Origin: Ensifer sp. LC11 | GTDB lineage: Bacteria; Pseudomonadota; Alphaproteobacteria; Rhizobiales; Rhizobiaceae | Assembly (NCBI RefSeq): GCF_001695835.1 | Contig: NZ_MBSO01000006.1 | Coordinates: forward strand, 62,001 to 126,000 | Direction of reading: 5' to 3' | Length of the DNA stretch: 64,000 bases | Shown here: piece after piece, positions 9,637 to 30,708 of the stretch | How the letters are laid out: the number at the start of each line of letters is the position of its first letter | How positions within the stretch are numbered: the first letter of the stretch is position 1 | Translations under genes and position numbers: made by a program | The notes under the pieces: generated by a model | Seen by the model: only the letters and a program-made list of their open reading frames with translations | What the model was told of the DNA's origin: nothing | The model's database searches: none

Positions 9637-9734
9637 ACGCGCCTTCTCCTAATGACGAGGAGCCACAATGATCATTCACATTTGCCTCTGCGAAACCGAA
9701 CGAACGCCAATCCACGCATCCGCTTCTGGCTGCC

Positions 9735-10652
9735 TCACGATCCCAGTTTGCTGTGCACGGCGGGGCGTCGACCATTGGCCGTGCGCCAGCCGGTCACCTC
9801 GATGCACTGTCGGTCGCCGCACATGACGGTGAAACCGTCCGGCGTGTGCGCCTGAACTTGCCCGGCGAGGCCGACATAGCGAAAGGAATCCGCAAATGTG
9901 CGCGCCACGTCGATATGGATGGGTTTTCCCTCCTGGCGAGCGAAGGCGCCGGGATAAGGCTCCCCGACTGCCCTGATCAGGCGCAGGATGTCCGTTGCTG
10001 GACGCTGCCAATCGATCAGACCGTCCTCCGCCACGCGTTTTGCGCAGTAACTCGCCAGATTGTGGTCTTGCTCGGTCCTCGGCGCCTTTCCTGCCGCCGC
10101 CAGGGCGACGGCTTCCGGAACCATCTCTGCCAGATTGCGCACATGTTTCTCGTAGAGACTGCGCGCCGTCTCGTCTGGAGCGAGGGCGAAAAGTCGCTGC
10201 AGGATGAGGGGGCCGGAATCTGTGCCTTCATCGATCCAGAAGAGCGACGACCCGGTCGTCTTCTCGTCGAGCAGGATTGTCCATGGAATAACCCCCCGTC
10301 CCCGCAGCCGAGGCAGTGCCGACGGGTGAAAGCCGATCACCCCCAGACGGGGGATGGCGCGAAACGCCTGGCGACAAATCTGCGACCAGCCGAGAACCAG
10401 CACAAGGTCCGGCGCGCTGGCACGAACGGCCTCCAGCGTTTCTTCCGCGTTCACATTGGTCGTATGGAAGACCGCGCTCCCGGCTGCCCGTGCCGGCGCG
10501 GTCAAATCGGCAAAATCGGAATGCCGGTCGGCCGCCTCGGGCGGCAACGTGACCACCAGCGACGGCAGCAGCCCTTTCGACAGAAGGGCATCAAGCGCTA
10601 TTCGGGATCCCTCTACGGCACCAACCAAAACAAACCGCATTGTTTTTCTCAA
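9735..10652 (-). CDS. Formyltransferase-family protein (Fmt/sugar N-formyltransferase-like)
   Basis: 305 residues with an N-terminal formyltransferase fold and a C-terminal Fmt-like domain (GLIDWQRPATDILRLIRAVG...YPGAFA). Family members transfer formyl from N10-formyl-tetrahydrofolate to Met-tRNA or to amino groups of nucleotide sugars. The catalytic region reads GVIGFHPSALPRLRGRG: His109 and Asp145 (DEGTDSG) are kept, but the usual asparagine two before the His is Gly107. A subgroup I recall with GFHP in place of NxHP exists, so this may be a family trait and not a defect. The context (CapD, DegT, PIG-L) favours an amino-sugar substrate over tRNA. It is the first gene of a three-gene minus-strand operon. 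Confidence 0.8.
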   Translation of the reverse strand: MRKTMRFVLVGAVEGSRIALDALLSKGLLPSLVVTLPPEAADRHSDFADLTAPARAAGSAVFHTTNVNAEETLEAVRASAPDLVLVLGWSQICRQAFRAIPRLGVIGFHPSALPRLRGRGVIPWTILLDEKTTGSSLFWIDEGTDSGPLILQRLFALAPDETARSLYEKHVRNLAEMVPEAVALAAAGKAPRTEQDHNLASYCAKRVAEDGLIDWQRPATDILRLIRAVGEPYPGAFARQEGKPIHIDVARTFADSFRYVGLAGQVQAHTPDGFTVMCGDRQCIEVTGWRTANGRRPAVHSKLGS

Positions 10653-12158: not shown

Positions 12159-12619
12159 CGTGCCACCGCGCGAACGAAGCGACTGAACAGGATATCAAAG
12201 AAAGAGACAGTTGCCCGCACGAAAAAGAAAACGAGGCCCAGTCCGTACCATCTTCCAGCGCCGAGACATCGCCGCGTTGACCAATGGCAAGCATGTGATA
12301 GCATCGAAACTTTAAAAGACATACTTTCAATTTCTTCAGATATACAATCACGCATTGCAGTTCGCGGCTTAAAATAATCTAATCACAAGCACTTCTTCTG
12401 CGGGCATTTTGACATGCATGTAACCCGAAGAATAACAGACCCGACACCACACACGACTTGCCGAGCCGTCCGTGACAGCAACGGGAAAGGGTCGTGGCGC
12501 CTGCGCGGCGCCACAAGGCAGCACGACCTGGGCCTGGCCGTCAGCGGCGGTCGGATGCTGGATGCGGGCAGGCGTCGGCCGCCTCCTCGGCCGAATGCGC
12601 ACTCCGTCGGGTGGGCATC
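12159..12619. other. Intergenic region with hairpin leader
   Basis: No gene that I can support. AT-rich near 12290-12420, then GC-rich. A perfect 8-bp stem GTGGCGCC/GGCGCCAC with a 5-base loop lies at 12494-12514, about 105 bp before the response-regulator start, and could be a terminator or leader structure. The response-regulator frame stays open back to 12494 but lacks domain features there. Confidence 0.5.
12494..12514. terminator. GC-rich 8-bp hairpin upstream of response regulator
   Basis: GTGGCGCC (12494-12501) and GGCGCCAC (12507-12514) form a perfect stem. No T-run follows on the plus strand. It may be a factor-independent or attenuation-type element, or simply a stable leader hairpin. 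Confidence 0.35.
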
Positions 12620-13279
12620 ATGACGGCACCGATACGCACAGTCATCGTCGACGACCATCCGCTCGTCATTGTTGGCGCCCGGGCAACAATCGCGACGACA
12701 AGCGATATCGTCTGCGTCGGCGCCGCCGCAACCGGCGCCGAGGCGCTTGCGCTCGTCAAGGAGACCTGCCCGGACGTATCGGTTATCGACATCTCCCTTC
12801 CCGACATGAGCGGCCTTTCGCTTGCCGAAGAGATCCTAAGGCAGCAGCTTTCGGCCTATGTGGTGGTGATGACGATCTACCAGGAACGAACCTATGCGCA
12901 GCAGGCGCTTCAGATCGGCGTTAAAGGGTTCATCCAAAAATGCTCCGCCCCCGAACATCTGCTGCTCGCCGTCCGTTCAGTGACGCTCGGCGGCCTGTAT
13001 CTGGATCCGCCAACCGCCCAGGAACTGACCCGCACACCGCCTGGCATTGGATCACGTGCCATGAAGGTGGTCGGCGTGCCCGGACTTACGCGTCGCGAGC
13101 AAGACGTGTTGCGTCTCGTCGCGCTCGGCTATTCCAACAAGGAGATTGGCGCGCGCACGAATGTGAGCGTCAAGTCGATCGAAACCTATAAGGCGCGCGC
13201 AACGGAGAAGCTGCAGCTCCACACGCGGGCGCAAATTGTCCATTTCGCCCTGACCCATGGCTGGATGAGCGCCCTCTAG
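12620..13279 (+). CDS. NarL/FixJ-family response regulator (orphan)
   Basis: 219-residue two-domain regulator. The receiver has the acidic pair D11-D12 (IVDDHP), phospho-acceptor D57 (VIDISLPDMSG), T85 and K105 (GVKGFIQK). The LuxR-type helix-turn-helix is LTRREQDVLRLVALGYSNKEI...SVKSIETYKARATEKL. No histidine kinase is encoded nearby, so its partner lies elsewhere. It sits between two glycosyltransferases and may control polysaccharide synthesis. Start chosen at ATG 12620, where homology to receivers begins at once. Its last codons CTC-TAG-AGC run into a dispersed palindromic repeat. Confidence 0.9.
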   Translation: MTAPIRTVIVDDHPLVIVGARATIATTSDIVCVGAAATGAEALALVKETCPDVSVIDISLPDMSGLSLAEEILRQQLSAYVVVMTIYQERTYAQQALQIGVKGFIQKCSAPEHLLLAVRSVTLGGLYLDPPTAQELTRTPPGIGSRAMKVVGVPGLTRREQDVLRLVALGYSNKEIGARTNVSVKSIETYKARATEKLQLHTRAQIVHFALTHGWMSAL

Positions 13280-14553: not shown

Positions 14554-16182
14554 TCAGGGCGAGCCCGGCTTCAGATACAGCGTAGGGGTCCCATACCGAT
14601 CCTTGAAACCAAGGGGAGCGGACTGCACATAGCCATGGCTCAGTGCATAGGCGTGCATGGGCTTTTCCAGCTCTTCCTCAAAACCGAGCAGAAGTGCCGC
14701 TGGCGGGTCCTTATCGAACATTGCTTCAATCGTCGCCGGCGACGCCATCTTGTAGTACTTCGCCAGCTCCGGGTCGGTCATGGCAGCGGTGCGATAGGCG
14801 AATGGCCCCGTAGCAAGCTCGGCATAGACGTCGAGGCCGCCTTCCAGCGGATAGATCGGCGAAAGGGTCGCCACTTTGCCGCTGACACCGGCAGCTTGCA
14901 TCCGCTCCGCAATCGTCATGCCCTGCTCATGCACGCGCATTGTCGCCCATTGCTGCGGATGTGTCGCCTTACCGATGTATTGACCAAGACGCGGCGCGTT
15001 GACGGCGAGCACGACAAGCGCCGCGGCCAGAAGGATCGGCCGCGCCATAGGAAGTGCCCCCGGCCCGAGCGCCTCTAGCAAGAGCGCGAACGCCAGTGGA
15101 ATGCAGACCAGCGGCGGCGCGAAATATTGCGGGAACCCAGGCGTCGGCACGAAACTCAAGGCGACACTGCAGAGCAATACGCCCGCCAGCACCAGCACCT
15201 CGCCGATCCGTGCCTTCGGCTCTGGCGCCGTATTCTCAGCGCGTCGGGCAAAAACCGTCAGTGCGACTGCCAGCAGCGCGGCAAGCGCCACGGCGACAGC
15301 CGGCGCAAACCATATCTCCTGAGCCAGCGCGAGCTTCTGGGCGAGCGACATTGCGCCTCCCTCCCCGTCACCGCTCATCAGCCGCCAATATTGCGGGTGC
15401 GGTCCGGTGTGATAGCGAACCACATGCGCGATAAAGAGCTCAGGGTCCCTGAAGAGATAAGCAAGGATCGGCGCTCCTCCAAGCAGGCCGCCAATCATCA
15501 GTGGACCGGCGACCTGACCGATGCGGTCTTTCAGCTTAAGCGATCGCGGCAATAGGAATGCGGCAACAGCCACGGCGGGTATAAAGGCAACAGCGCTCAA
15601 CTTGAAGCTCACGGCAAGCGCCAGGAAGAAGCCGGCCAATACAGCCAGCGCGGCGCGCCGCCGCTCGTTGCGCAGCGCGAACAGGAAAAGACTGAGGCCG
15701 AGGAAGGCAAACGGCCAGGGCAAGAAATTGTTGGTGGCGCTGACACCCGTCTGCGTCAGGAACAGTTCGTTCACCAAGGAAACAACCACGACACAAACGG
15801 TTGCCCAGCCCGAACGTGTCAGTGCGTGCACGACGCCCGCCACCACCACCGCGAACAGGATCCAGGCGAGGAACACACCCACTCGGCCACTCAGAAGCAG
15901 GTAACTCGGCTCGACAAGCTTGCCGATGCCGTAGAAGTACCATGCGGAGCCCGGCGGATGATTGTAGAAGAAATCACCATAGAGCGCATGGTCGTTTAGC
16001 AGCCGGATCGGGGGAACATACAGTTGCTCGTCCCGCCGCATCTCGAAATTCATGATGCGGAGAAATAAGAAATAAGACACAAACAAGAAGAACAGCGCAG
16101 TCGCAAGATAGTAAAAAAACTCTACAGACCTTCCGCGAACCGAGACTTTTTCCTCGGAAGAAACGTTTGCTGGATATGTCAT
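14554..16182 (-). CDS. Polytopic GT-C glycosyltransferase (GT39/ArnT-like)
   Basis: 542-residue integral membrane protein with about 11-12 hydrophobic segments. Its first periplasmic loop carries MRRDEQLYVPP and NHPPGSAWYFYG, the acidic motif and loop pattern of PMT/ArnT-type GT-C enzymes, which take sugars from polyprenyl-phosphate on the periplasmic side. It is divergent from the rfbF operon, which ends in GtrB- and GtrA-like genes. The three could form a Gtr-type system in which this protein adds the flipped sugar to the polymer. That link is inference from layout. Confidence 0.78.
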   Translation of the reverse strand: MTYPANVSSEEKVSVRGRSVEFFYYLATALFFLFVSYFLFLRIMNFEMRRDEQLYVPPIRLLNDHALYGDFFYNHPPGSAWYFYGIGKLVEPSYLLLSGRVGVFLAWILFAVVVAGVVHALTRSGWATVCVVVVSLVNELFLTQTGVSATNNFLPWPFAFLGLSLFLFALRNERRRAALAVLAGFFLALAVSFKLSAVAFIPAVAVAAFLLPRSLKLKDRIGQVAGPLMIGGLLGGAPILAYLFRDPELFIAHVVRYHTGPHPQYWRLMSGDGEGGAMSLAQKLALAQEIWFAPAVAVALAALLAVALTVFARRAENTAPEPKARIGEVLVLAGVLLCSVALSFVPTPGFPQYFAPPLVCIPLAFALLLEALGPGALPMARPILLAAALVVLAVNAPRLGQYIGKATHPQQWATMRVHEQGMTIAERMQAAGVSGKVATLSPIYPLEGGLDVYAELATGPFAYRTAAMTDPELAKYYKMASPATIEAMFDKDPPAALLLGFEEELEKPMHAYALSHGYVQSAPLGFKDRYGTPTLYLKPGSP

Positions 16183-16586
16183 CTAAAAACTCCGAACAAA
16201 CAATCGACGAAGTATAGAAAGCGGGAAGCGACGCGAACATTGACGGCCGCGCTCTGGCTCGGATCATCAAGCGGGAACGTGACGGCACCGGTGGCGCGTG
16301 GCATACGGGAAAATCCGGACAAGCGCGCAAGGATAAACCTGACACCTAAAAAAGCTTGCGGCCAAGCATAATATAAGGTATTTCTTTTATATTGGTTACT
16401 TAAGATAACGGAAACCCTGGGACTAATCCAGATATATTCCGTAACGCGCAGGCAAACGCCTGCATTTATTGGCGTGCATTTTTATCAGTTATTGAAAACG
16501 ACCTCATCGCGCATTGGATCGCGATTGCCCATGAATAAAACCTAAGACGTCAACAGTATCCCAAACATATATTCTTGGAGACCGCT
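16183..16586. promoter_or_regulatory. Divergent promoter region of GT-C gene and CDP-sugar operon
   Basis: 404 bp, AT-rich at 16360-16440 and 16460-16580. It contains a perfect 6-bp hairpin GCAGGC/GCCTGC (16448-16463) followed by ATTTATT, which could be a terminator-like or regulatory element. No gene seen. Promoters for both directions must lie here, but exact boxes are not assigned. Confidence 0.5.
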
Positions 16587-17411
16587 ATGAAAGTCGTTCT
16601 CTTTGCGGGAGGGCTTGGCTCGCGCCTTGCCGAGGAAACCACGCGTATACCCAAGCCGATGGTCGAGATTGGTGGCAAACCCATCATTCTTCACGTCATG
16701 GACATTTACAGCCATTGGGGACACCGCGACTTCGTCGTGGCCGGCGGCTATAAATGCATGTCCATCAAGAGCTTTTTCCATAACTTCCATCTGTCGACGG
16801 CCGATTTTACTGTCGCGCTTGGAAGCGGCTCGATGGTGCTGCATCCCAATCATCCGCTCGATTGGAATGTTTCGGTGGTGGACACCGGCCTGTCGACAAT
16901 GACGGGAGGCAGGCTTTTGCGCCTGCGTGAGTGGCTCGACAACGAACCCTTCATGGTGACCTATTCGGATGGTGTCGGGAACATCGACATCGAGGCGCTT
17001 CTTGCCTTCCACCGCTCGCACGGACGGCTTGCGACAGTCACGGCGGTCCAGCCCCCGGCGCGCTTCGGCAACCTCGAGATCGAAGGTGACCAGGTCGTCG
17101 AATTCACCGAAAAGGTCCAGAAGAAGGAAACCTGGATCAACGGCGGCTTCTTCGTCTTTGAACCGGGCGTCCTCGACTACATCCCGGGGCTTGCCGAGCC
17201 ACTCGAAATGTCGCCGCTGACCAACCTCGCAAGAGACGGGCAGCTGTTTGCCTACAAGCACCACGGCTTCTGGCATCCGATGGATACGATCCGCGATCGC
17301 GACTACCTGAACGGCCTGTGCGAGAGCGACGATCCGCCGTGGCTGCATTTTGAACGCGACCACATCGCAGCAACGACACCCCCAACGTCTACCCATCACG
17401 TACGGATGTAG
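16587..17411 (+). CDS. rfbF: Glucose-1-phosphate cytidylyltransferase
   Basis: 274-residue nucleotidyltransferase making CDP-glucose from CTP and glucose-1-phosphate. The start shows the pyrophosphorylase signature FAGGLGSRLAEETTRIPKPM, followed by IGGKPIILHVMDIYSHWG, YSDGVGNIDI and WINGGFFVFEPG, all typical of RfbF/DdhA. The true start is ATG 16587, with GGAG seven bases upstream; an in-frame TTG at 16575 is less likely. Three bases separate it from rfbG. It is the first step of the CDP-deoxysugar operon. Confidence 0.96.
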   Translation: MKVVLFAGGLGSRLAEETTRIPKPMVEIGGKPIILHVMDIYSHWGHRDFVVAGGYKCMSIKSFFHNFHLSTADFTVALGSGSMVLHPNHPLDWNVSVVDTGLSTMTGGRLLRLREWLDNEPFMVTYSDGVGNIDIEALLAFHRSHGRLATVTAVQPPARFGNLEIEGDQVVEFTEKVQKKETWINGGFFVFEPGVLDYIPGLAEPLEMSPLTNLARDGQLFAYKHHGFWHPMDTIRDRDYLNGLCESDDPPWLHFERDHIAATTPPTSTHHVRM

Positions 17412-17414
17412 GAC

Positions 17415-18572
17415 ATGGCTGCGATCACCTGCGAGGCGGACCTTTCCGAGGCGTTCCATGGTCGGAGAATCCTGATCACGGGCCACACCGGCTTCAAGGG
17501 AGGCTGGCTCGCGCTGTGGCTGAGGCGGCTGGGTGCGTCGGTGGTCGGGCTATCCCTGCCGCCGTCGAAGCCGTCCTTCTTTCTGGCGACCGAACTTGGC
17601 GAAATCGTAGAGGGCCATAGCGGCGACATCAGGGTCGCCGCAGATGTTGCGCAGGCAATCCAGGGGCAGGATTTCGATCTTGTCATCCACATGGCTGCGC
17701 AAGCGGTCGTTCGAACATCGTTCGAGAGCCCTGTCGATACCTACGCCACCAACGTCGTCGGCACCGCGATCGTGCTCGATGCGGCGCGAAGGCTGAAATC
17801 GCTGAAGGGCGTCATCGTCGTCACCAGCGACAAGTGCTACGAAAACCGTGAATGGGTGTGGGGCTATCGCGAGAACGACCCGATGGGCGGGCGCGACCCG
17901 TACAGTTCGTCGAAAGGGTGCGCCGAACTTGTCGCGGCCGCCTACCGCTCCTCGTTCTTCAACGATGCGAGCGGGCCGCAGCTCGTCAGCGTGCGCGCCG
18001 GCAATGTTATCGGCGGCGGAGACTGGGGCGCCGACAGGCTTGTGCCGGACCTTGTCCGTTCGGTGGAAAGCGGCAACCCGGCGCGATTGCGCAATCCATC
18101 GAGCATCCGGCCGTGGCAACACGTATTCGAGCCGCTTCGCGGTTACATGATGCTCGCCGCCCATCTCGTTCACGGCAGGACGCGCTTTGCAGGTGGCTGG
18201 AATTTCGGCCCCGATCAGGAAGCAACGGTGAATGTTGGAACGCTTGCCCAGATGGTCGTCAGCCATTGGGGCGACGCCCCGCCGCGATACATCGTGGAGC
18301 AGCAGGCGAACGGGCCGGTGGAGTCCACCATTCTGCGCCTCGACAGCACCAAGGCACGTACGGAACTCGGATGGAAGCCGGTACTCCGCCTTGACGACGC
18401 CGTGGCCATGACCGCCGCCTGGTACAGGAAGTATCGCGACGATCCCACGCACATCCGCTCGTTTTCCGAACATCAACTGGAGCAATACGCCGACGCCTGG
18501 AAACAGGAAGCTGAACCCGACGCAAGACCATCGCCATTGCGCGCTATCGGAGATTGGAAAGATGCGAGTTAA
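17415..18572 (+). CDS. rfbG: CDP-glucose 4,6-dehydratase
   Basis: 385-residue extended SDR that converts CDP-glucose to CDP-4-keto-6-deoxyglucose. NAD-binding motif is ILITGHTGFKGGWLALWL, the form specific to RfbG/DdhB. Further landmarks are TSDKCYENREWVWGYRE and the catalytic Tyr/Lys in DPYSSSKG. SVRAGNVIGGGDWGADRLVP is also a family hallmark. The 3' end overlaps the next gene by 11 bp, so the operon is tightly coupled. Confidence 0.96.
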   Translation: MAAITCEADLSEAFHGRRILITGHTGFKGGWLALWLRRLGASVVGLSLPPSKPSFFLATELGEIVEGHSGDIRVAADVAQAIQGQDFDLVIHMAAQAVVRTSFESPVDTYATNVVGTAIVLDAARRLKSLKGVIVVTSDKCYENREWVWGYRENDPMGGRDPYSSSKGCAELVAAAYRSSFFNDASGPQLVSVRAGNVIGGGDWGADRLVPDLVRSVESGNPARLRNPSSIRPWQHVFEPLRGYMMLAAHLVHGRTRFAGGWNFGPDQEATVNVGTLAQMVVSHWGDAPPRYIVEQQANGPVESTILRLDSTKARTELGWKPVLRLDDAVAMTAAWYRKYRDDPTHIRSFSEHQLEQYADAWKQEAEPDARPSPLRAIGDWKDAS

Positions 18573-19800
18573 TTACGGGCAGTCCGTTTACGGCCAGGAA
18601 GAAATCGATGCCGTCATGGCAGTCTTGCGGTCATCGACGCAGATGGGCAAAGCCGTCAGGGCGATGCAGGAGCGCGTCGCCGCGCTTTTCGCAAAACGGC
18701 ATGGCATCATGGTGAATTCGGGTTCGTCGGCGAACCATCTCGCCATCGAGATCGCCAACCTTCCGAAGGGCTCCGAAGTCATTACCCCTGCATTGACCTT
18801 TGCCACGACGGTAGCGCCGATCGTGCGTGCCGGCCTCCTACCGGCCTTCGTCGATGTGGTTGACGGCACCTACAACATCGATGCCGACGCGATCGAGCGC
18901 ATGATTACCAAGAAGACGAAGGCGGTGATGATCCCGTCCCTGATCGGCAACCTGCCGGATTGGGACCGCATTCGCGCCATCGCGGACGCCCATAAGCTGT
19001 TGGTGATCGAGGACAGCGCCGACACGCTCGGTGCAACGGTGCGCGACAAGAGCACCGGAACGCGCTCCGATATCAGCACGACCAGCTTTTACGGTTCGCA
19101 TGTCATCACCGCGGCCGGCAATGGCGGCATGGTCTGCGTCAACGACGATGAACTGGCGCGCACGGCGCTTCTCTATCGCTCCTGGGGCCGCACGTCCTCG
19201 CTTTTCGTTGAATCCGAAACCATCGAGAACCGTTTCAACATCGACCTCGACGGCTTCGACTACGATGCGAAGTTCGTATTCGAAGTTCTGGGGTTCAACA
19301 TAGAACCGTCCGAGATGGGCGCCGCGTTCGGGCTCGTACAATTAGATCGCCTGCAACAGAACATCGACGCGCGCGAGCGCAACTTCGCCAAGCAGATGGC
19401 CTTCTTCCAGGAGTACGAGGACTGGTTCGTGCTACCGCGGCAGTTGCCGTTCTCGCGAACCGGATGGCTGGCATTTCCGCTGACTGTGCACGCCGATGCC
19501 CCCTTCACCCGCCGCGAGATGCAGATCTTCCTGGAGCAGCGCGACATCCAGACCCGGCCGGTGTTTACCGGCAACATCCTGCGCCAGCCGGCCATGAACG
19601 GTGTCGCCTGCAAGGTCGATCCCCGCGGCTACCCAATCGCCGACGACGTGATGCGCGGCGGCATCCTGCTCGCTTGCCACCACGGGCTGACGCCGGCGCA
19701 TCTGGATCACATCCACCAGTCGTTCCGCGATTTCGCGCTTCGATTTGCAAATTCAGGGTCCAGCAGGCGCAGCCAACAGCAACCTGCCTCCTTCTTTTAA
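18562..19800 (+). CDS. PLP-dependent sugar 3-dehydrase-like protein (RfbH/ColD type, no Fe-S cysteines)
   Basis: 412-residue fold-type I protein of the DegT/RfbH group. At the cofactor lysine position it has His180 (SFYGSHVITAAGNGG). This replacement marks C-3 dehydrases such as RfbH/DdhC and ColD and is not seen in aminotransferases. RfbH-type enzymes also carry a C-x-C...C cluster for [2Fe-2S] right after YRSWGR; here the same place reads TSSLFVESETIENRF with no cysteine, so an iron-sulphur centre is very unlikely. ColD also works without Fe-S, but on GDP sugars. The product may therefore be a 3-deoxy-4-keto CDP sugar made by a PMP/glutamate route, or something new. GGAG precedes ATG 18562. 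Confidence 0.82.
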   Translation: MRVNYGQSVYGQEEIDAVMAVLRSSTQMGKAVRAMQERVAALFAKRHGIMVNSGSSANHLAIEIANLPKGSEVITPALTFATTVAPIVRAGLLPAFVDVVDGTYNIDADAIERMITKKTKAVMIPSLIGNLPDWDRIRAIADAHKLLVIEDSADTLGATVRDKSTGTRSDISTTSFYGSHVITAAGNGGMVCVNDDELARTALLYRSWGRTSSLFVESETIENRFNIDLDGFDYDAKFVFEVLGFNIEPSEMGAAFGLVQLDRLQQNIDARERNFAKQMAFFQEYEDWFVLPRQLPFSRTGWLAFPLTVHADAPFTRREMQIFLEQRDIQTRPVFTGNILRQPAMNGVACKVDPRGYPIADDVMRGGILLACHHGLTPAHLDHIHQSFRDFALRFANSGSSRRSQQQPASFF

Positions 19801-19818
19801 GTGATATGGGGTTTAAAG

Positions 19819-21042
19819 ATGACACGTCTTACGAGATGCCGCGCCTGTCTTGCAGCCGACCCGCTCACGTTTCTCTGCATGGGTGATCACCCTCCGGCAA
19901 ACAGCTTCGTGCGGTCGGAGGATGTGCCTGAAAGCCAGCCCACCTATCCGCTCGACTCGCAGGTCTGCCTGACGTGCGGCCTGATACAGGTTTCCGACCA
20001 GGTTCCGGAAGGTTTTTTTGAGCACTATCTCTACGTTCCCTCGAGCGCCACCTCCATGCACGACCACTTCGCAGGATTGGCCGATGTGCTGAAGAAGGCG
20101 GCCGGAAGCGGGCTGATCGTTGATATCGGTTGCAACGACGGCCTTCTGCTTTCGGCTTGCAACAAGGTCGGCGGAAACACGCTCGGTGTCGACCCTGCGG
20201 CCAACCTTGCCGAGATTGCCCGCGCTCGCGGCGTGAACGTCGATGTCGGCTACTTCACCCACCACGGCTCGGCACGCCTTGTTAAAGAGTACGGTTCGGC
20301 AAAGGCGATCGTGACGACCAACACGTTCAACCACATCGGCGACCTTCATGATTTCATGGCCGGTGTCAAAGACTGGCTGGCGGAAGACGGCGTCTTCGTC
20401 GTCGAAGTGCCGTGGGCGAAGAACCTCCTCGAAAACAACGAATTCGATACGATCTATCACGAGCACGTCTCCGAGTTCAGCCTGCTGTCGCTCGTCAAGC
20501 TCAGCGGGCACTTCGACCTTGAGGTCGTCGACGTTCATCGCCTTGGCGTGCACGGAGGGTCGATGCGTGTCTTCCTCAAACATGCTGCCGCCGCCACTCG
20601 TCCGTCGGCGACGGTCGGTGAAATGCTGGCGGAAGAACTGGACACCGGGATGCTCGAGGCCGAGACCTATCTCGCCTTCGCAGAACGGGTACGCAAGATC
20701 GGTGTCGACCTGAACGCCATGCTCGACCAACTCAAGAAGGACGGCATCACCATCGCCGGTTACGGTGCGCCGGCCAAGGGCAACACCCTCCTCAACTTTT
20801 TCGGGATCGGGCCCGACAGGCTCGACTATCTGGTTGACCGAAATGCACTAAAGCAGGGGCTGTACTCGCCGGGTATGAAGATACCGATCCGCTCGCCCGA
20901 GGTATTGACCGAAGACGCGCCCGACGTGCTCCTCGTATTGGCCTGGAATTTCTTCGACGAGATCCGGGCACAGCAAACTGATTTTGCCGCGCGTGGTGGC
21001 CGCTTCCTCGTGCCGCTGCCTTACCCGACCCTCGTCAACTAG
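19819..21042 (+). CDS. Sugar C-methyltransferase, TylCIII/NovU/EvaC-like
   Basis: 407-residue three-domain methyltransferase. The N-terminal zinc site uses C7, C10, C50 and C53 (CRAC...CLTC), the SAM site is VDIGCNDGLLLSAC, and the C-terminal Rossmann domain contains IAGYGAPAKGNTLLNFFGIG. Enzymes of this layout add methyl groups to carbons next to the 4-keto group of activated deoxysugars. Placed after the dehydratase and dehydrase, it probably makes a branched CDP-sugar. ATG 19819 (18 bases after the previous stop) is preferred to the GTG at 19801, since the zinc motif starts six residues later. Confidence 0.88.
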   Translation: MTRLTRCRACLAADPLTFLCMGDHPPANSFVRSEDVPESQPTYPLDSQVCLTCGLIQVSDQVPEGFFEHYLYVPSSATSMHDHFAGLADVLKKAAGSGLIVDIGCNDGLLLSACNKVGGNTLGVDPAANLAEIARARGVNVDVGYFTHHGSARLVKEYGSAKAIVTTNTFNHIGDLHDFMAGVKDWLAEDGVFVVEVPWAKNLLENNEFDTIYHEHVSEFSLLSLVKLSGHFDLEVVDVHRLGVHGGSMRVFLKHAAAATRPSATVGEMLAEELDTGMLEAETYLAFAERVRKIGVDLNAMLDQLKKDGITIAGYGAPAKGNTLLNFFGIGPDRLDYLVDRNALKQGLYSPGMKIPIRSPEVLTEDAPDVLLVLAWNFFDEIRAQQTDFAARGGRFLVPLPYPTLVN

Positions 21043-21093
21043 AAGTCGGGACGGGTTGCGATACGGCGATTTGGCGCAAACGGGATTAGGCCC

Positions 21094-22068
21094 ATGTCGA
21101 GAGTATTGATTACCGGCGCGGCTGGATTCATTGGTTCGCATATGACGCGCGCTTGCGTCGATGCCGGCTATGAAGTCCATGTCGTGGCAAGGCCCGGCAC
21201 CGACGACAGCCGGCTCGATGCCGTCGATGGTGCGTTCACCCGACACAACTTCGACCTTCAGTCTGAAGAGGCTATCAAGCGGTGCCTTTCAGACGTGTCG
21301 CCGGAGATCGTCTTTCATCTCTCCGCCCGACCTAGGCGGCGCGAGGAAGCCGAACTCAACGACGCCAAGGCCGGAATCCGGGAACACCTCAACGCGCTGC
21401 TCGGTCTCCTCGGAGCCGCGAGTGTTGTCCGCCACCCGCCGCGAAAGATCGTCAGAACCGGCTCCCTTGCCGAGTACGGCTCGGCGCCGACACCCTACGA
21501 AGAAGATAGCCGCGAGTTGCCGGTCAACGCCTATGGCGCCGAACTCGCCGCCGCCACACATTTCATCGGTGGCTTGCAGGCGCGCCTGTCCTTCCCCGTA
21601 ATCACGGCGCGGCTGGCGCTCGTCTACGGCCCGATGCAATCGACGGAATTCATGATTCCGCTGTTGATCGAACGTTGCCTCGCCGGCCAGCACTGCGTCG
21701 TCCGCAATCCGGGAGACCGACGCGATCTGCTCTATGTCGACGACGTCATTGAAGCCTTGCTTCGGATTGCCGATGCGCCGGTAAGCACCCGGCTCGTCAA
21801 TGTCGCAACTGGCATGGCACCAACTATGCGGGAGGTTGCAAAGCTCATCGTCGAGCACACCGGTGCCGACCCGGGCCTCATAGAATACGGAGTGGGGTCG
21901 ACCGGGGGCATCAGGGATTTCCGTGCATCGACCGCGCGAGCCAAGGATCTTTTCGGTTGGAGCATGCGGGTGCCGCTGACGGAGGGGCTAGCCCGCACAA
22001 TCGCATGGCGCCGAGGGGTACTACCGCCCATATCAAGCGATGGCCGCGCATCGCGCAATACCGTCTGA
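21094..22068 (+). CDS. NAD(P)-dependent sugar reductase/epimerase-like protein (extended SDR)
   Basis: 324-residue extended SDR, expected to reduce the 4-keto group or epimerise the CDP-sugar. Nucleotide-binding motif VLITGAAGFIGSHMT is intact and RTGSLAEYG supplies the Ser/Thr. The catalytic YxxxK reads Y147-GAE-L151, so the lysine is replaced by Leu. Either another residue takes over, the reaction differs, or activity is lost. It lies 51 bp after the methyltransferase and 15 bp before the GT2 gene, in one operon. Confidence 0.82.
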   Translation: MSRVLITGAAGFIGSHMTRACVDAGYEVHVVARPGTDDSRLDAVDGAFTRHNFDLQSEEAIKRCLSDVSPEIVFHLSARPRRREEAELNDAKAGIREHLNALLGLLGAASVVRHPPRKIVRTGSLAEYGSAPTPYEEDSRELPVNAYGAELAAATHFIGGLQARLSFPVITARLALVYGPMQSTEFMIPLLIERCLAGQHCVVRNPGDRRDLLYVDDVIEALLRIADAPVSTRLVNVATGMAPTMREVAKLIVEHTGADPGLIEYGVGSTGGIRDFRASTARAKDLFGWSMRVPLTEGLARTIAWRRGVLPPISSDGRASRNTV

Positions 22069-22083
22069 GGGTGGTGAAACGCG

Positions 22084-23097
22084 ATGAAGAAGAAACCAAA
22101 GATTTCGATCCTGGTGCCGGCCTACAACGAGGAGGCCAATGTCAGGCGCGCCCACGAGGCGATCGTCGAGATGTTTGGGACCCTTCCCGGATACGACCGC
22201 GAGATCATCTTTACGGACAACCACTCCACCGACAGGACCTTCGACATTCTGTCAGAAATTGCCCGCGAAGACCCGACCGTCCGTGTCATCCGCTTCAGCC
22301 GCAACATCGGCTATCAGCGCTCGCTGCTGGTCGCCTACAAGACGGCGACGGGCGATTGCTCCGTTCAGATCGACTGCGATCTGCAGGATCCTCCGCATCT
22401 CATTCCAGGCATGGTCGACCTTTGGTTGGAGGGTCACCAGGTCGTCTACGGCATTCGCCGGACACTCAAGGACGGGTGGCTGACGACCCGGATCCGCCGC
22501 GCTTTCTACTGGTGCATCAACGCGCTCAGCGAAGATGATCTGCCTCTCAACGCCGGCGAATTCCGACTTGTCGACCGATGCATTCTTGATGAGTTGCGCA
22601 AGGTCGACGATACGTCGCCCTATCTGCGTGGCCTTATCAGTGCGATGGGTTTCTCGCAGGTCGGCTTTGAATATGACCGACAGGCGCGTGTCGCGGGCGA
22701 AAGCAAGTTTCCGTTCAGGGCCATGTTGTCACTCGCCGTCGACGGGATCCTCAACCATTCGCTGACGCCGCTGCGGCTCGCCTCGATGGCAAGCCTGGTG
22801 ATGGGCACTGCCACCCTCCTGCTTCTGCTCGGCTACCTCGTCGGCAAGCTTCTGTTTGGACAGGACTGGCCGGCGGGCTTTGCCACGACGACGATGCTGC
22901 TTCTGCTTTCCATCACTCTGAACGCAATTTTCCTCGGCATCATGGGCGAATATGTGGGACGCATTTTCATGCAATCTAAGCGACGCCCTGCCCCGATCAT
23001 CGAAGCATCGCTCAATGACGACCGACACCGGCGACCGGCACCAATGATGCCGGAATGGAGGCGGGGCGATGTCGCGGCCGACAATCAAAGACATTAG
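22084..23097 (+). CDS. Polyprenyl-phosphate glycosyltransferase, GT2 (GtrB/ArnC-like)
   Basis: 337-residue GT2 enzyme. The N-terminal GT-A domain starts ISILVPAYNEEANVRRAH and has the metal motif IDCDLQDPP. Two C-terminal membrane helices (LASLVMGTATLLLLLGYL and TMLLLLSITLNAIFLGIMG) anchor it as in GtrB, ArnC and DPM-type enzymes. These load a sugar onto undecaprenyl phosphate. Its end overlaps the GtrA-like gene by 29 bp. The operon context implies that the CDP-sugar made upstream is the donor; known GtrB enzymes use UDP-glucose, so this would be unusual. Confidence 0.88.
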   Translation: MKKKPKISILVPAYNEEANVRRAHEAIVEMFGTLPGYDREIIFTDNHSTDRTFDILSEIAREDPTVRVIRFSRNIGYQRSLLVAYKTATGDCSVQIDCDLQDPPHLIPGMVDLWLEGHQVVYGIRRTLKDGWLTTRIRRAFYWCINALSEDDLPLNAGEFRLVDRCILDELRKVDDTSPYLRGLISAMGFSQVGFEYDRQARVAGESKFPFRAMLSLAVDGILNHSLTPLRLASMASLVMGTATLLLLLGYLVGKLLFGQDWPAGFATTTMLLLLSITLNAIFLGIMGEYVGRIFMQSKRRPAPIIEASLNDDRHRRPAPMMPEWRRGDVAADNQRH

Positions 23098-23566
23098 CGC
23101 CGGGCCGCGCGGCGGCGCGACGCTTGCACGGTTTGCTGCCGTTGGCGCGCTGACGACCCTCCTCGACATGGCACTGTTCAACACACTCTATCTGGTGGGG
23201 GTGCCGCCACTTTCCTCGAACCTGGTTTCCTATTCCTGCGGGATCGCGGTGAGCTACATGCTCAATCGCGCCTGGACCTTCCGCGCCGCCCGCAGCCATG
23301 TGCAAGCCGTTAAGTTTGTCGTGGCGACGGTTGCCGGCCTCCTGATCTCGACGGCCATCGTTTCGACCCTTGCATTGCTGATCCCGGCGCCCATCGCCAA
23401 GCTCGTCAGCGTCCCCATCGTATTCGTCTGGAACTACCTGACGTCTCGGCTCTGGGTGTTTCGCGAAGCTGCAGCAGCGAATGCCGTCATGAAATACGCG
23501 ATGGAGGATGCCGTCGCATTAGGCAGCCGGCATCCTCCTGAAACACAGCAACCGAATATCTCTTAG
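23069..23566 (+). CDS. GtrA-family small membrane protein (lipid-linked sugar flippase)
   Basis: 165-residue protein with four hydrophobic segments. The pattern RFAAVGALTTLLDMALFNTL...YSCGIAVSYMLNRAWTFR...VKFVVATVAGL...VWNYLTSRLWVFR is the classic GtrA/DPMS-flippase signature. GtrA proteins are thought to flip undecaprenyl-phosphate sugars to the periplasm. It starts inside the GT2 gene, so the pair is coupled. It closes the CDP-sugar operon; the AT-rich 82-bp gap that follows probably carries a separate promoter for cysD. Confidence 0.9.
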   Translation: MSRPTIKDISAGPRGGATLARFAAVGALTTLLDMALFNTLYLVGVPPLSSNLVSYSCGIAVSYMLNRAWTFRAARSHVQAVKFVVATVAGLLISTAIVSTLALLIPAPIAKLVSVPIVFVWNYLTSRLWVFREAAAANAVMKYAMEDAVALGSRHPPETQQPNIS

Positions 23567-23648: not shown

Positions 23649-24548
23649 ATGTCTTTAACCCATTTGCAGCGACTTGAAGCCGAAGCGATCCACATCTTCA
23701 GAGAGGTCGCCGCAACCTTTGCCAAGCCGGTCATGCTCTACTCGATCGGCAAGGACTCCTCCGTCATGCTGCATCTGGCGATGAAGGCGTTTTATCCAGG
23801 AAAACCACCCTTCCCATTCCTGCACGTCGACACGACCTGGAAGTTCCGCGAGATGATCGAATTTCGCGACCGCATCGCGGCCCAGTTCGGCATCGATCTG
23901 ATCGTTCACATCAACCGCGACGGTGTCGAACAGAAGATCAGCCCCTTCACCCATGGCTCCAACGTACACACCCATGTGATGAAGACACAGGCGCTTCGCC
24001 AGGCCCTCGACAAATATGGCTTTGATGCCGCCTTTGGCGGCGCGCGACGGGACGAGGAAAAGAGCAGAGCAAAGGAGCGTATTTTTTCGTTCCGCAACAG
24101 TCAGCACGCTTGGGATCCAAAGAACCAGCGGCCCGAGATGTGGAAGAGCTACAACACCCGTGTCGGCCCCTCGGAGACCATCCGCGTCTTTCCTCTGTCG
24201 AATTGGACCGAGCTCGATATCTGGCAATATATCCTCAAGGAAAACATTCCGATCGTTCCGCTCTACTTCGCGGCACGCCGCCCGGTGGTTCAGCGGGACG
24301 GCATGCTGATCATGGTCGATGACGACCGAATGCCGCTCCATGACGACGAAAAGGTCGAAGAGCGCCTGATCCGCTTTCGAACGCTCGGTTGCTATCCGCT
24401 CACCGGGGCCATCGAATCGAGCGCGACAACACTCCAGGATATCGTTCGCGAGATGCTGACCGCACGGACGTCCGAGCGGCACGGTCGCCTGATCGACGCC
24501 GACGAGGCCGCATCGATGGAGAAGAAAAAGCGGGAGGGGTACTTCTGA
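23649..24548 (+). CDS. cysD: Sulfate adenylyltransferase subunit 2
   Basis: 299-residue ATP sulfurylase catalytic subunit (CysD/NodP). It has the PP-loop [51 protein letters not shown] and the C-terminal end [10 protein letters not shown], all diagnostic. With the CysN GTPase it makes adenosine 5'-phosphosulfate from ATP and sulfate. Its stop overlaps the next start (TGATG). Presence inside a polysaccharide locus with a sulfotransferase at 40305 suggests a dedicated sulfate-donor supply, as with rhizobial nodPQ. Confidence 0.97.
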
Positions 24549-26440
24549 TGACGGCCTTCAGCACACCCGCCACAACCAGCACCGTGCTGGACTATCTGGC
24601 CAAACAGGAAAAGAAATCGCTCCTGCGTTTCATGACCTGCGGCTCCGTCGACGACGGCAAGTCAACCCTGATTGGCCGGCTGCTCTACGACAGCAAGCTT
24701 TTGTTCGACGACCAGCTTGCCGCGATCAAGCGTGACACCAAGCGGCGCAACGCAAGCCAAAACGACATTGATTTTGCTCTTTTGATCGACGGCCTCGAAG
24801 CCGAAAGGGAACAGGGCATCACCATCGACGTCGCCTATCGCTTCTTCGCCACGTCGCGGCGCAAGTTCATCGTTGCAGACGCGCCGGGGCACGAGGAATA
24901 CACGCGAAACATGGTCACGGCCGCATCGACCGCGACGCTCGCAATCGTGCTCGTTGATAGCCGTAAAGGCATCCTTCGTCAGACGCGCCGCCATTCCTTC
25001 ATCGCGTCCCTGCTCGGGGTGCGCCATGTCCTTCTTGCCGTCAACAAGATCGACCTGGTCGGCTATGATCGGCGCGTCTTCGAGTCAATTGTTGCCGACT
25101 ACAGGGAATTTGCCAGGAACCTCGGCTTCACAACGGTCACTCCCATTCCGATCTCGGCGCGCTTCGGCGACAATATGACAAGCCGGTCGCCGAAGATGCC
25201 CTGGTATGATGGACCGACGCTGCTTGAGCATCTTGAGACGGTCCCGATCGAGGAAGATGCGACCGAAGCTCCGTTTCGGTTTCCGGTTCAACTCGTCCTG
25301 CGCCCAAACCTCGATTTCCGCGGATTTGCCGGGCAGGTGGCATCCGGCAGCATAGCCGTCGGCGACCCGGTGGCGGTGGCAAAATCCGGCCAGCTATCCA
25401 AGGTCAAGGAAATCGTCACCTACGACGGCAAGCTCGCGCGCGCGATCGAGGGGCAGTCGGTCACGCTCGTGTTGGAAGACGAACTGGAAGTTTCGCGCGG
25501 CAACATGCTCGTGCCACCTGAAGACCGCCCTCATGTCGCCGACCAGTTCATGGCCCACGTGATCTGGCTCCATCCTGATCCGATGCTTCCCGGCCGCAGC
25601 TACATCCTGCGCACCGAGGTCGACAGCGTGAGCGCCACCATCACGAGCCTGAAACACCAGATCGACGTCAACACCTTCGCCGAGGAAGCGGCAAAGTCGT
25701 TGCGCATGAACGAGATCGGCGTGTGCAATCTCTCCACCCAGGCGCCGATCGTCTTCGACAGCTACAAGGCCAACCGCACCACCGGCAATTTCGTGCTGAT
25801 CGATCGTTTCAGCAACGCGACCGTTGGCGCCGGCATGATCGATTTCCCACTCCGACGGGCGCTCAACGTCCATTGGCAAGCGCTCGACATCAACAAGAAG
25901 GCGCGCGCCGCACTCAATCATCAGACACCGCGGGTGCTCTGGTTCACCGGTTTTTCCGGCTCCGGAAAATCGACGATCGCCAACATCGTCGAGAAGATTC
26001 TGCATTCCAGAGGCAAACACACGTTCCTGCTCGACGGTGACAACGTCCGTCACGGCCTCAACCGCGATCTTGGCTTCACCGAAGAGGACCGCGTGGAGAA
26101 CATCCGACGCGTGGCCGAAGTCGCCAAGCTGATGACCGAGGCGGGCCTGATCGTGCTCGTCTCGTTCATCTCGCCGTTCCGTTCAGAACGCCGCATGGCG
26201 CGGGAAATGTTCGCGCCTGGCGAATTCATCGAGATCTTCGTCGACACACCGATCGAGGAATGCGCGCGGCGTGATCCCAAGGGCCTCTACAAGAAGGCGC
26301 TCGCCGGCGAGATCCGGAACTTCACCGGCATCAGCTCACCCTATGAGCGCCCGGAGGCGCCGGAGATCCACCTCCATACGGTGGGCCACGAGGTCACGGC
26401 TCTTGCAAGCGAGATCGAGGCCTACCTGGACGAACAATAG
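24548..26440 (+). CDS. cysNC: Bifunctional sulfate adenylyltransferase subunit 1 / APS kinase (NodQ-like)
   Basis: 630-residue fusion. The CysN GTPase has GSVDDGKST (32-40), [12 protein letters not shown] and NKIDLV, followed by EF-Tu-like barrels. The C-terminal APS kinase has P-loop GFSGSGKST (468-476), [17 protein letters not shown] and the ISPFRSER segment (Ser about 542). It boosts APS formation by GTP hydrolysis and phosphorylates APS to PAPS, the universal sulfuryl donor. The frame remains open upstream to 24389, but the ATG at 24548 overlapping the cysD stop is the real start. Similar fusions (NodQ) serve Nod factor and LPS sulfation in Sinorhizobium. Confidence 0.97.
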
Positions 26441-26493
26441 CAACCGCGTCAGCGGACGGCAGCGAAGCCAAAGAATGCAATTGGAGGGATGCG

Positions 26494-27303
26494 ATGATCG
26501 ACACGCTCACGGCAGCCGCGATAGAGGCCGGCAAGGCTATTCTCGACGTTTATGAACGTGACATCAGTGTTGCCGAAAAAGCAGACTGCTCGCCGGTCAC
26601 CGAGGCGGACCGCTCCGCCGAAGAAATCATCCTTGCCATACTGGCGCAGACCTTCCCGGATATCCCTGTCGTTGCCGAGGAATCCGTTGCGGCAGGCGCC
26701 GTGCCCGATATCGACGGGCAGCGTTTCTTTCTCGTCGATCCACTCGACGGCACCAAGGAATTCATCAACCGGCGCAGTGATTTCACCGTCAACATCGCCT
26801 TGATCAGCGATGGCGAGCCGGTGGCAGGCGTGGTCTTTGCGCCTGCACGGCAGGTCGGCTACGTTGCCGAAGGCGGCAAGGCCACCAAGTTTCATGTGGC
26901 CGCCGACTTCGCCGTCACCGAGATTGCGGAAATACGCTGCCGGCCGCGGCCGGCCAGCTTGACGGCGGTTGCCAGCCGTTCCCACAGCGACGCCGAAACA
27001 GCCGATTTTCTCCAAAAGAACGCGATCCTTGAGTGCACGTCGATCGGCTCCTCGCTCAAATTTTGCCTGCTCGCCGAGGGCCTGGCTGATGTCTATCCGC
27101 GTTTCGGACGCACCATGGAATGGGATACGGCCGCAGGCGACGCCGTATTGCGTGCCGCCGGCGGCCGCGTCACGACGTTGGACGGGCAACCCTTCCTCTA
27201 TGGAAAGCGCCGTCAGGCGAACGACTGCGACTTCGCCAATCCCGGCTTCATCGGCTGGGGGCGGGATTGCGGGCCTCTCGCCACCGAAAAGGAAGCGGAA
27301 TGA
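26494..27303 (+). CDS. cysQ: 3'(2'),5'-bisphosphate nucleotidase
   Basis: 269-residue inositol-monophosphatase-fold enzyme. Metal sites are seen in PVTEADRSAEEIIL, VVAEES, VDPLDGTKEFI and MEWDTAAGDAVLRAAGG. It hydrolyses PAP, the by-product of PAPS-dependent sulfation, to AMP, and so prevents product inhibition of sulfotransferases. TTGGAGGGA before ATG 26494 is a strong ribosome site. It lies 53 bp after cysNC in the same direction. Its linkage to cysDNC supports a complete PAPS cycle in this locus. Confidence 0.94.
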   Translation: MIDTLTAAAIEAGKAILDVYERDISVAEKADCSPVTEADRSAEEIILAILAQTFPDIPVVAEESVAAGAVPDIDGQRFFLVDPLDGTKEFINRRSDFTVNIALISDGEPVAGVVFAPARQVGYVAEGGKATKFHVAADFAVTEIAEIRCRPRPASLTAVASRSHSDAETADFLQKNAILECTSIGSSLKFCLLAEGLADVYPRFGRTMEWDTAAGDAVLRAAGGRVTTLDGQPFLYGKRRQANDCDFANPGFIGWGRDCGPLATEKEAE

Positions 27304-27462: not shown

Positions 27463-28830
27463 ATGAGCATGTTCGACCATAGCCTTCCGGCCGGACTGGC
27501 CCCCAAACGCGACGCGATGCGTCGCGACACACCGGGCCTTGCGCTCAGCAGAAAGTTTGAGTTCATCCTGCTGCTTGGCGCCGTCTTCTTCTGCTCGATG
27601 AATTACTTTCGGTATGGCGACACGAATTTTACCGTCGCCGACTTCCTTGCCCTTCTTTGCTTCTGTTTTGCGGTGCTCAACCGCAACATTGATCTTCAGC
27701 TGTTCGGTCGCGTCAGCAGCGGGCTGTGGTGGCTGGGGCTGACGCTACTGGTTTCAGGGCTCTTGGCAAGCAGCATTGCCGGCCCCGACCCCATGCGCGG
27801 CATCGTCGTCGTTACGCAATATCTCTACGCCTATCTCTTCGTGGTGCTGCTGTTCAGCGGCCGCACTCTTGACCAACTCGTGATCCTTGCAAAGACCTAT
27901 GTGTTCTCGATCCTCGTCTTGTGTTTTCAAGGGATCTATCTCATCCATGTCGACGGTCGCACAAACACCAATTTCGTGAGCGGCAACGGACGCTTCAGCG
28001 GATTGATGGAGCGCGAGAACGAGTGCGCGGCGGTCATAGCGCTCGCAGTGCCTATCCTGCTTTTGCTGATCACGACGAGACGGCTCAACCGCGTCTATGC
28101 CTTCATCGCCCTGCCGATCCTCATCTACGGGATCCTGCTCACGGGCTCAAATACGGGCCTCATCGCCCTTGTGTTTGGCATGAGCGTATTCGCGATCATT
28201 GGCGTCAACTGGAAGCGGCTGGTCGTCAACATCGTCTTGCTTGCCGGCATTGTCCTCGCCGTCGGTAGCTCCGCGCGAGACTATCTGCCGGCCGCGTTCC
28301 AGAAGCGCGTGCTTGGCGCCCTCGAAAGCGGCGACATCGGACAAGCCGGCACATTCGACCACCGTGTCGAACTGATCTATGAAGCGATGAACATGACCGA
28401 CAGCACATTGCTGATCGGGGTGGGCGCAGACCAATACCGGATAGCGAGCGCTATCCATCAGCCGGTCCATAATCTCTATCTGCTGCTATGGACAGAAGGC
28501 GGCCTGATATCCGCCATTGGCCTTTTGGTCATGCTCCTCGCCGCCTTTGGCCCCGCGTTGGCGGTGGCGCGGCTACCCGGAGGTCGGGCCTTCGCGGGAT
28601 GCATCGCAGCCAACGTCTCCATGCTGCTCCTGGTCGCCAATGCGGTGCCGCATGCCTATAGCCGCTTCTGGCCGTTCCCGCTCGTGCTCCCCGTGGCACT
28701 CGCCTGCGCCTACATCGCGCTCTCGCGTTCGACGAAGCCGGTTCCCGATGCCTTTGGCCAACCCGAGCCGGTGCTCACACAACCGGAACAAGGCTTCATG
28801 TCTCAGGCGGGCCCGGACGCGCGGCGTTGA
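27463..28830 (+). CDS. O-antigen ligase/polymerase-type membrane protein (Wzy-like)
   Basis: 455-residue polytopic protein with 10-12 hydrophobic segments and a large periplasmic loop between about residues 280 and 340 (FDHRVELIYEAMNM...GVGADQYRIASAIHQPVHN). The HN-x-YL-x-LW pattern after that loop is common to Wzy polymerases and WaaL ligases. In this locus, with Wzx, Wzc and Wza partners, polymerase is the better guess. Its 3' end overlaps the convergent sugar transferase gene by 35 bp. Confidence 0.82.
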   Translation: MSMFDHSLPAGLAPKRDAMRRDTPGLALSRKFEFILLLGAVFFCSMNYFRYGDTNFTVADFLALLCFCFAVLNRNIDLQLFGRVSSGLWWLGLTLLVSGLLASSIAGPDPMRGIVVVTQYLYAYLFVVLLFSGRTLDQLVILAKTYVFSILVLCFQGIYLIHVDGRTNTNFVSGNGRFSGLMERENECAAVIALAVPILLLLITTRRLNRVYAFIALPILIYGILLTGSNTGLIALVFGMSVFAIIGVNWKRLVVNIVLLAGIVLAVGSSARDYLPAAFQKRVLGALESGDIGQAGTFDHRVELIYEAMNMTDSTLLIGVGADQYRIASAIHQPVHNLYLLLWTEGGLISAIGLLVMLLAAFGPALAVARLPGGRAFAGCIAANVSMLLLVANAVPHAYSRFWPFPLVLPVALACAYIALSRSTKPVPDAFGQPEPVLTQPEQGFMSQAGPDARR

Positions 28831-30671: not shown

Positions 30672-30708
30672 GGCTTGCTCCCTCGGTCGACCGAAAATTC
30701 CAGAAATG

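Follow-up and report, generated by a model that had tools for sequence, protein, structure and literature searches.

A CDP-deoxysugar operon linked to GtrB- and GtrA-like genes in Ensifer sp. LC11 suggests a variant three-component glycosylation system

Gene content and layout of the cassette

We analyzed a stretch of 64,000 nucleotides (the window) on a contig of the 6.2 Mb genome of Ensifer sp. LC11, with a focus on the eight-gene cassette at 14554..23566. A first-pass annotation had described this cassette as a CDP (cytidine diphosphate)-sugar operon that runs into a family 2 glycosyltransferase (GT2) and a GtrA-like gene, with a GT-C membrane transferase diverging at its head. This layout was borne out: all eight genes are intact open reading frames (ORFs) where that annotation had placed them, with family matches, tight spacing, and linkage of six of the genes in nine of nine loci of the nearest GT2 clade, the window among them. 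Judging from sequence comparisons, the cassette probably encodes a three-component system for periplasmic glycosylation that has been adapted to a CDP-linked deoxysugar.

The reverse strand carries the gene for a GT-C-type membrane glycosyltransferase of 542 amino acids (14554..16182), the proposed final periplasmic transferase. On the forward strand follow genes for RfbF (16587..17411), the glucose-1-phosphate cytidylyltransferase of CDP-glucose synthesis, and RfbG (17415..18572), the CDP-glucose 4,6-dehydratase. Next is an RfbH-like 3-dehydratase (18562..19800), a relative of E1 and ColD with a pyridoxal/pyridoxamine phosphate (PLP/PMP) fold and without [2Fe-2S] cysteines. It precedes a sugar C-methyltransferase of the TylC3/NovU kind (19801..21042), with methylation predicted at C3 or C5, and an extended short-chain dehydrogenase/reductase (SDR; 21094..22068), the proposed C4 ketoreductase. 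The operon ends with a GtrB-like GT2 (22084..23097), a candidate CDP-sugar:undecaprenyl-phosphate transferase, and a small GtrA-like membrane protein (23069..23566), the putative flippase. The gaps between successive genes from rfbF to gtrA are 3, -11, 0, 51, 15, and -29 bases, the last being the overlap of gtrA with the GT2 gene, and cysD begins 82 bases past gtrA. The whole cassette sits in a Wzx/Wzy/Wza-type polysaccharide locus.

Both nucleotide-sugar enzymes scored above their curated cut-offs, RfbF with 332.7 bits against TIGR02623 (cut-off 300.25) and RfbG with 434.6 bits against TIGR02622 (cut-off 278.45). RfbF probably starts at the ATG at 16587 and not at the TTG at 16575 given by the ORF tool. 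That rfbF and rfbG of the window might be the only CDP-glucose genes of the genome was ruled out by a second set on contig C1. This cluster (L127, C1:139000-158900) contains rfbF, rfbG, and C-methyltransferase genes with 49, 40, and 36% identity to those of the window, as well as a DegT aminotransferase-type gene; GtrA and a PMT_2 protein are encoded 18-25 kb off on the same contig. No GtrB-like GT2 was found in the L127 cluster.

Conservation of the cassette

The nearest relatives named at the locus were two Ensifer adhaerens records (L003 and L004), with dehydratase identities of 92 and 91%. We compared nine near loci: the window, L003-L006 from the dehydratase scan, and L047-L050 from the GT2 searches. 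L003-L006 were fetched through the dehydratase and contain it by construction. Genes for RfbF, RfbG, the RfbH-like dehydratase, the GT2, GtrA, and the GT-C protein were present in all nine loci, and the nine GT2s formed one clade with full support. The GT-C orthologue adjoined the operon in all eight related loci and lay on the strand opposite rfbF in seven of the nine, including the window. The SDR was found in eight loci and the C-methyltransferase in six; L049 had neither an SDR nor a C-methyltransferase match and no SDR between the dehydratase and GT2 genes. This pattern suggests a constant core of CDP-sugar synthesis, lipid charging, flipping, and GT-C transfer, to which the methyl branch is an optional addition. 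The first-pass annotation had built its reading on a C-methyl deoxysugar; with three of the nine near loci lacking a C-methyltransferase match, the methyl branch does not define the system. Distribution in the genus was patchy, with the GT2 in 5 of 16 genomes.

The base-reading residue of the GT2

The best PDB match of the GT2 was the Synechocystis GtrB, sll0501 (172 bits), with 108.4 bits for the best ArnC match, and its two C-terminal hydrophobic segments, presumptive membrane helices, follow the GtrB layout. In the alignment to sll0501, the window GT2 has Asn at residue 46, the site of GtrB Asp43. This substitution was observed and counted before the role of Asp43 was known to us from the structural paper. 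Asp43 of GtrB hydrogen-bonds N3 of the uracil of UDP (uridine diphosphate) (PMC5526996), the equivalent Asp of SpsA coordinates uracil N3, and its mutation in MG517 reduces activity to less than 2% (PMC3849446). Because cytosine N3 bears no hydrogen, Asn as a hydrogen donor would fit this base, and we infer that Asn46 suits cytosine and that Asp does not. The metal-binding DxD and the equivalent of R290 are also kept in the window GT2, and residues matching GtrB R122 and R200 were kept in 26 of 26 rfbF-linked GT2s. A UDP-sugar Gtr system would be recognized by the uracil-reading Asp in its GT2, and N46 stands in that place here; the change argues against a Gtr system fed by a UDP-sugar, not against a system that works like Gtr.

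Architecture and best PDB match are also as expected for UDP-glucose GtrB in an ordinary Gtr cassette, in which undecaprenyl-phosphate-glucose would be made from UDP-glucose and the CDP-sugar genes would either be chance neighbors or supply a cytoplasmic transferase that acts on the same repeat unit. Several cytoplasmic GT4 genes in the window could use a CDP-sugar, and LC11 has a second rfbF cluster that does without a GtrB-like GT2. An ordinary cassette is, however, at odds with the Asn at the uracil-reading position, with the presence of rfbF beside all 13 GT2s of the clade that combines Asn with DxD, and with the lack of a GtrB-like GT2 at 20 of 20 other rfbF loci (both described below), and we consider it improbable.

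Association of Asn with rfbF

Within the order Rhizobiales we examined 76 loci (L003-L006 and the 72 GT2 hits ranked 2-73), taking up to about 10 kb on each side. rfbF lay within the stretch in 25 loci, and residue 46 was Asn in every one of them (21 of 21 after dropping the four loci found via the dehydratase). The 51 loci without rfbF nearby had Asp in 50 cases and Asn in one (L100, on a 9.2 kb contig). As a held-out sample, we took the 40 best-scoring GT2 places from beyond the order, which comprised 12 Asn and 28 Asp enzymes; four of the Asn enzymes had rfbF at more than 150 bits nearby, and no Asp enzyme did. Counted from rfbF, all four out-of-order GT2s with the gene nearby had Asn, and 28 of the 36 without it had Asp. 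Thus rfbF nearby implies Asn, and Asn does not imply rfbF nearby. One out-of-order locus, L177, contains two GT2s, an Asn-type (49%) and an Asp-type (34%), and also encodes RfbF, RfbG, GtrA, and a C-methyltransferase.

A tree of 119 GT2s, built with the motif columns left out, separated Asn from Asp by one change (Shimodaira-Hasegawa-like approximate likelihood-ratio support 96), with 39 of the 119 in the Asn clade and both named phage GtrBs on the Asp side. The Asn clade has two parts. In the part that keeps DxD (13 GT2s, window included), rfbF was linked in 13 of 13, or in 8 of 8 when the window and the four dehydratase-found loci are excluded. In the sister clade of 26 GT2s (for example L055, L058, L064, and L183), the first Asp of DxD is replaced by Pro, Ala, Val, or Leu, and rfbF was nearby in 17; the Arg290 equivalent was also lost in the 14 linked members from the 76-locus set.

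Searching in the reverse direction, we obtained 20 of 58 listed rfbF places, the top-scoring loci outside the order, and found a GtrB-like GT2 within the stretch in none of the 20 (E ≤ 1e-12 over 200 residues), in a search that had no positive control of its own, like searches elsewhere having found GT2s. At a near miss, G674, a GT2 lay about 11.4 kb from rfbF, outside the searched stretch. Together with the second cluster of the LC11 genome, which has no such GT2, this result argues that CDP-sugar clusters do not as a rule pair rfbF with a GtrB-like GT2.

Several observations weigh against the proposed CDP-reading enzyme. The use of N46 as a diagnostic of CDP is weakened by 8 of the 12 out-of-order Asn GT2s, which had no rfbF in the stretch; all eight belong to the branch without the first DxD Asp, and some of the stretches stop at contig ends. 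In one genome with an unlinked Asn GT2, G484, no rfbF was found elsewhere either. The single Asp-to-Asn change means that the association of rfbF with Asn is one evolutionary event, long retained, and not many independent ones, and the Fisher p of 0.005 presumes an independence that fails for the same reason. At L200 an Asp GT2 is accompanied by a weak, 62-bit rfbF match, and at L177 the Asp-type GT2 shares its locus with rfbF and the Asn-type enzyme. The LC11 genome itself encodes a GT2 that is not GtrB-like (L136, C8:121243-121671) and also has Asn at the position 46 site, in a frame of 422 amino acids that aligned over 86 residues only, in its first part. In the window GT2, Glu replaces GtrB Asp157, the putative catalytic acid (PMC4728340). 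Finally, AlphaFold2 models from five-sequence alignments were too poor for use, with a mean pLDDT (predicted local distance difference test) of 53 for the GT2 and 50 for the GT-C protein. In favor of the proposal, rfbF was present elsewhere in 8 of the 9 genomes with an unlinked Asn GT2 (the eight out-of-order ones and that of L100); the rate was 2 of 9 among genomes selected because they have Asp GT2s and 79 of 299 in a sample of the phylum.

The predicted sugar

The dehydratase scored 312.1 bits against the RfbH model, under its cut-off of 423, and its best PDB relatives were E1 (217.6 bits) and then ColD (163 bits). An active-site His that replaces the PLP Lys was kept in 17 of 17 aligned dehydratases, the window protein included. 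Of six alignment columns in which seven distant RfbH sequences conserve Cys, none holds a Cys in the window protein or its eight near orthologues. In L007, a Candidatus Staskawiczbacteria metagenome-assembled genome with 54% identity to the dehydratase, Cys is kept in one of the six columns. E1 and SpnQ have a four-Cys [2Fe-2S] motif and need a reductase, whereas ColD has no [2Fe-2S] cluster, its intermediate is hydrolysed, and PMP is regenerated with glutamate (PMC8987622). Because the active-site His is kept and the [2Fe-2S] cysteines are missing, as in ColD, we predict ColD-like chemistry for the window dehydratase, and since the cysteines are missing no iron-sulfur (E3) reductase would be expected. 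Operon context indicates a CDP-sugar, rather than a GDP (guanosine diphosphate)-sugar, as its substrate.

The methyltransferase matched Methyltransf_13, Methyltransf_23, and Methyltransf_14, with Zn-binding, S-adenosylmethionine, and C-terminal domains present. Its best PDB match was 4rv9, the D-mycarose 3-C-methyltransferase (296 bits), with which it has a YHEH motif in common; this is the Tyr-x-Glu-His motif that characterizes TylC3/NovU C-methyltransferases and has a catalytic role in them. The family takes in C5 enzymes as well, such as NovU. The methyl group would be placed on the carbon adjoining the 4-keto group, most likely C3 and possibly C5. With C3 deoxygenated in the earlier step and methylation beside the 4-keto group, a 3-C-methyl-3,6-dideoxy sugar would result. 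A search of open-licence literature on branched deoxysugars in rhizobia returned nothing usable.

The gene first annotated as reductase-like belongs to the extended SDRs (Epimerase family, 125.9 bits), and C4 reduction is the activity we propose for it. This family placement was upheld; the catalytic Lys expected of a reductase is missing. The catalytic Tyr of YxxxK was kept in all eight SDRs of the clade, and the Lys (position Y+4) was Leu or Met in all eight. SDRs beside rfbF in ten other CDP loci have the Lys, and those of L077, L084, L088, and L109 read YGAKL, which is ambiguous for the Lys. The missing Lys, together with the lack of both SDR and methyltransferase at L049, leaves the end product uncertain. 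The missing Lys and the lack of an SDR at L049 would fit a lipid-linked 4-keto sugar (a 3,6-dideoxy-4-ulose, with or without the C-methyl group), the Lys-less SDR being no reductase. However, the SDR gene was kept in 8 of 9 loci with its Tyr intact in 8 of 8, which points to some role, and an SDR without the Lys might retain binding of NAD(P), a nicotinamide cofactor; we regard a keto sugar as very unlikely.

GtrA, GT-C, and the acceptor

GtrA scored 92.9 bits against PF04138 (cut-off 26.1), consistent with a flippase role. Since tblastn with the window GtrA missed GtrA in several loci, we used a small GtrA profile instead; its seeds include the window, L003, L005, L047, L049, and L050, which match by construction. 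A GtrA-like ORF occurred in 12 of the 13 loci that belong to the clade with Asn and DxD. In the other Asn clade, 8 of the 17 loci linked to rfbF had one; among unlinked Asn loci the count was 1 of 9, and among Asp loci 41 of 78. On these counts GtrA alone is not discriminating.

The GT-C protein matched PMT_2 at 28.6 bits, barely above the cut-off of 26.1, as one of three PMT_2 matches genome-wide, and five of the nine GT-C orthologues matched at E ≤ 1e-3. A profile of the nine sequences against PDB found no chain at E ≤ 1. Residues D51 and E52 were invariant in all nine and lie past what appears, by sequence, to be the first membrane helix. Solved GT-C enzymes are reported to have a catalytic Asp after helix 1 (PMC11127046).

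An undecaprenyl-phosphate-linked, CDP-derived sugar might also be placed by the GT-C enzyme on lipid A, core, or protein. Acceptors of this sort are known for other PMT_2-type GT-C enzymes, as with ArnT and lipid A (PMC11127046), and the set of polysaccharide genes that surrounds the cassette is inconstant, with Wzy, Cys, and GT4b matches varying from locus to locus. Against this, the cassette of the window lies within a Wzx/Wzy/Wza locus, and polysaccharide genes adjoin it also in L003-L005 and L050. We consider another acceptor unlikely and favor the polysaccharide of the locus itself.

Proposed pathway and comparison with known systems

The reactions, their order, the structure of the sugar, and its acceptor are what we infer from observed gene content, families, conserved linkage, and residue changes. 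RfbF and RfbG would make CDP-4-keto-6-deoxyglucose, from which the RfbH-like enzyme would strip the hydroxyl at C3 through PMP- and glutamate-dependent chemistry of the ColD type, with no need for an iron-sulfur reductase. In this strain the TylC3-type enzyme would then methylate next to the keto carbon, most likely at C3 and possibly at C5, and the SDR would presumably complete the sugar. With Asn46 in place of the uracil-holding Asp, the GT2 would take the sugar off CDP and load it onto undecaprenyl phosphate, GtrA would flip the lipid-linked sugar across the membrane, and the GT-C enzyme would add it to an acceptor in the periplasm, most likely the Wzx/Wzy polysaccharide of the locus. The interpretation first suggested is partly supported: its core, a Gtr-like three-part system fed by a CDP-sugar, has been strengthened by conserved linkage and the Asp-to-Asn change, and the methyl branch has lost weight.

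Compared with Gtr O-antigen glucosylation (GtrA-GtrB-GtrC/Gtr*, as in Salmonella phage ST64T, L125, and in sll0501), the window set has in common a GT2 with two C-terminal helices, an overlapping gtrA gene, a separate putative GT-C enzyme, DxD, and the equivalents of R122, R200, and R290. It differs in Asn for Asp43, in Glu for Asp157, and in its place in a CDP-deoxysugar operon, and unlike the two named phage GtrBs its GT2 falls outside the Asp clade. The set appears to work like the Gtr three-component systems, and because the base-reading residue of its GT2 differs from that of UDP-sugar enzymes, we would file it as a variant and not with the UDP-glucose kind. Known Gtr-type systems had been taken as limited to UDP-glucose, which is contradicted by three-component systems in which C55-P-galactose is made from UDP-galactose (PMC8035078) and in which pentofuranoses derived from phosphoribosyl pyrophosphate (PRPP) are used with a MATE (multidrug and toxic compound extrusion) flippase (PMC11127046). 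GtrB-type enzymes are described as using a UDP-sugar (PMC11127046, Discussion). Term counts returned no mention of CDP in PMC11127046, PMC8035078, or PMC12826051, and among the open-licence papers listed by our searches none described a CDP-sugar GtrB or CDP three-component system.

The undecaprenyl-phosphate-pentofuranose systems (Citrobacter youngae O1/O2; GT136) also combine a lipid-linked donor, a flippase, a GT-C enzyme, and sugar-modifying enzymes; they differ in a PRPP-dependent charging enzyme unlike GtrB, a MATE-like flippase, and epimerisation of the lipid-linked sugar (PMC11127046). With the CDP-3,6-dideoxyhexose pathway of Yersinia and Salmonella O antigens, the cassette has RfbF, RfbG, and an E1-like dehydratase in common; unlike that pathway, it lacks the Fe-S cysteines, adds a C-methyltransferase, and would transfer the sugar from a lipid and not from CDP. 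ArnC is a GT2 that makes an undecaprenyl-phosphate sugar. In the ArnC/ArnT modification of lipid A that sugar is used by a GT-C enzyme, ArnT (PMC11127046), but there it is UDP-linked aminoarabinose, and the window GT2 is nearer GtrB than ArnC. ColD, the GDP-4-keto-6-deoxymannose 3-dehydratase, has the active-site His and the absence of [2Fe-2S] cysteines in common with the window dehydratase (PMC8987622), which is nonetheless closer to E1 and stands in a CDP context.

We hold it to be an evenly balanced question whether the deep GtrB-like clade as a whole (39 of 119) reads cytosine through the Asp-to-Asn change and forms a general route for CDP-deoxysugars to the periplasm, here for a C-methylated 3,6-dideoxysugar, possibly a keto sugar, made with an Fe-S-free E1 relative. 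If true, a GtrB branch that reads CDP would bring the 3,6-dideoxy and branched-chain sugars built on this nucleotide within reach of periplasmic glycosylation, and the donor nucleotide of GtrB-like proteins could be predicted from a single base-reading residue, Asp or Asn. The Fe-S-free E1 relative, likewise, would offer a simpler enzymatic synthesis of CDP-3,6-dideoxysugars.

Neighboring genes in the polysaccharide locus

The polysaccharide locus around the cassette includes a Wzy_C protein (27463-28830) and an initiating transferase (28796-29431), along with Wza-like and Wzx-like proteins, a GNVR chain-length-type protein, several GT4s, and a sulfotransferase. Directly past gtrA, at 23649-27303, lie cysD, cysNC, and a cysQ-like phosphatase gene, and the sulfotransferase is encoded 13 kb beyond the cys genes, at 40305-41153. 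From these genes, the polysaccharide of the locus may be sulfated. cysD and cysNC adjoin the cassette in L003, L004, and L005 too. The locus also contains membrane-type 4,6-dehydratase, ATP-grasp and formyltransferase, DegT aminotransferase, and PIG-L deacetylase genes (291-2579, 8665-10652, and 29463-31392), which suggests that an N-formylated amino sugar may be made as well. A LuxR-type response regulator at 12494-13279, which adjoins the cassette also in L003, L004, L047, L048, and L049, is a possible regulator.

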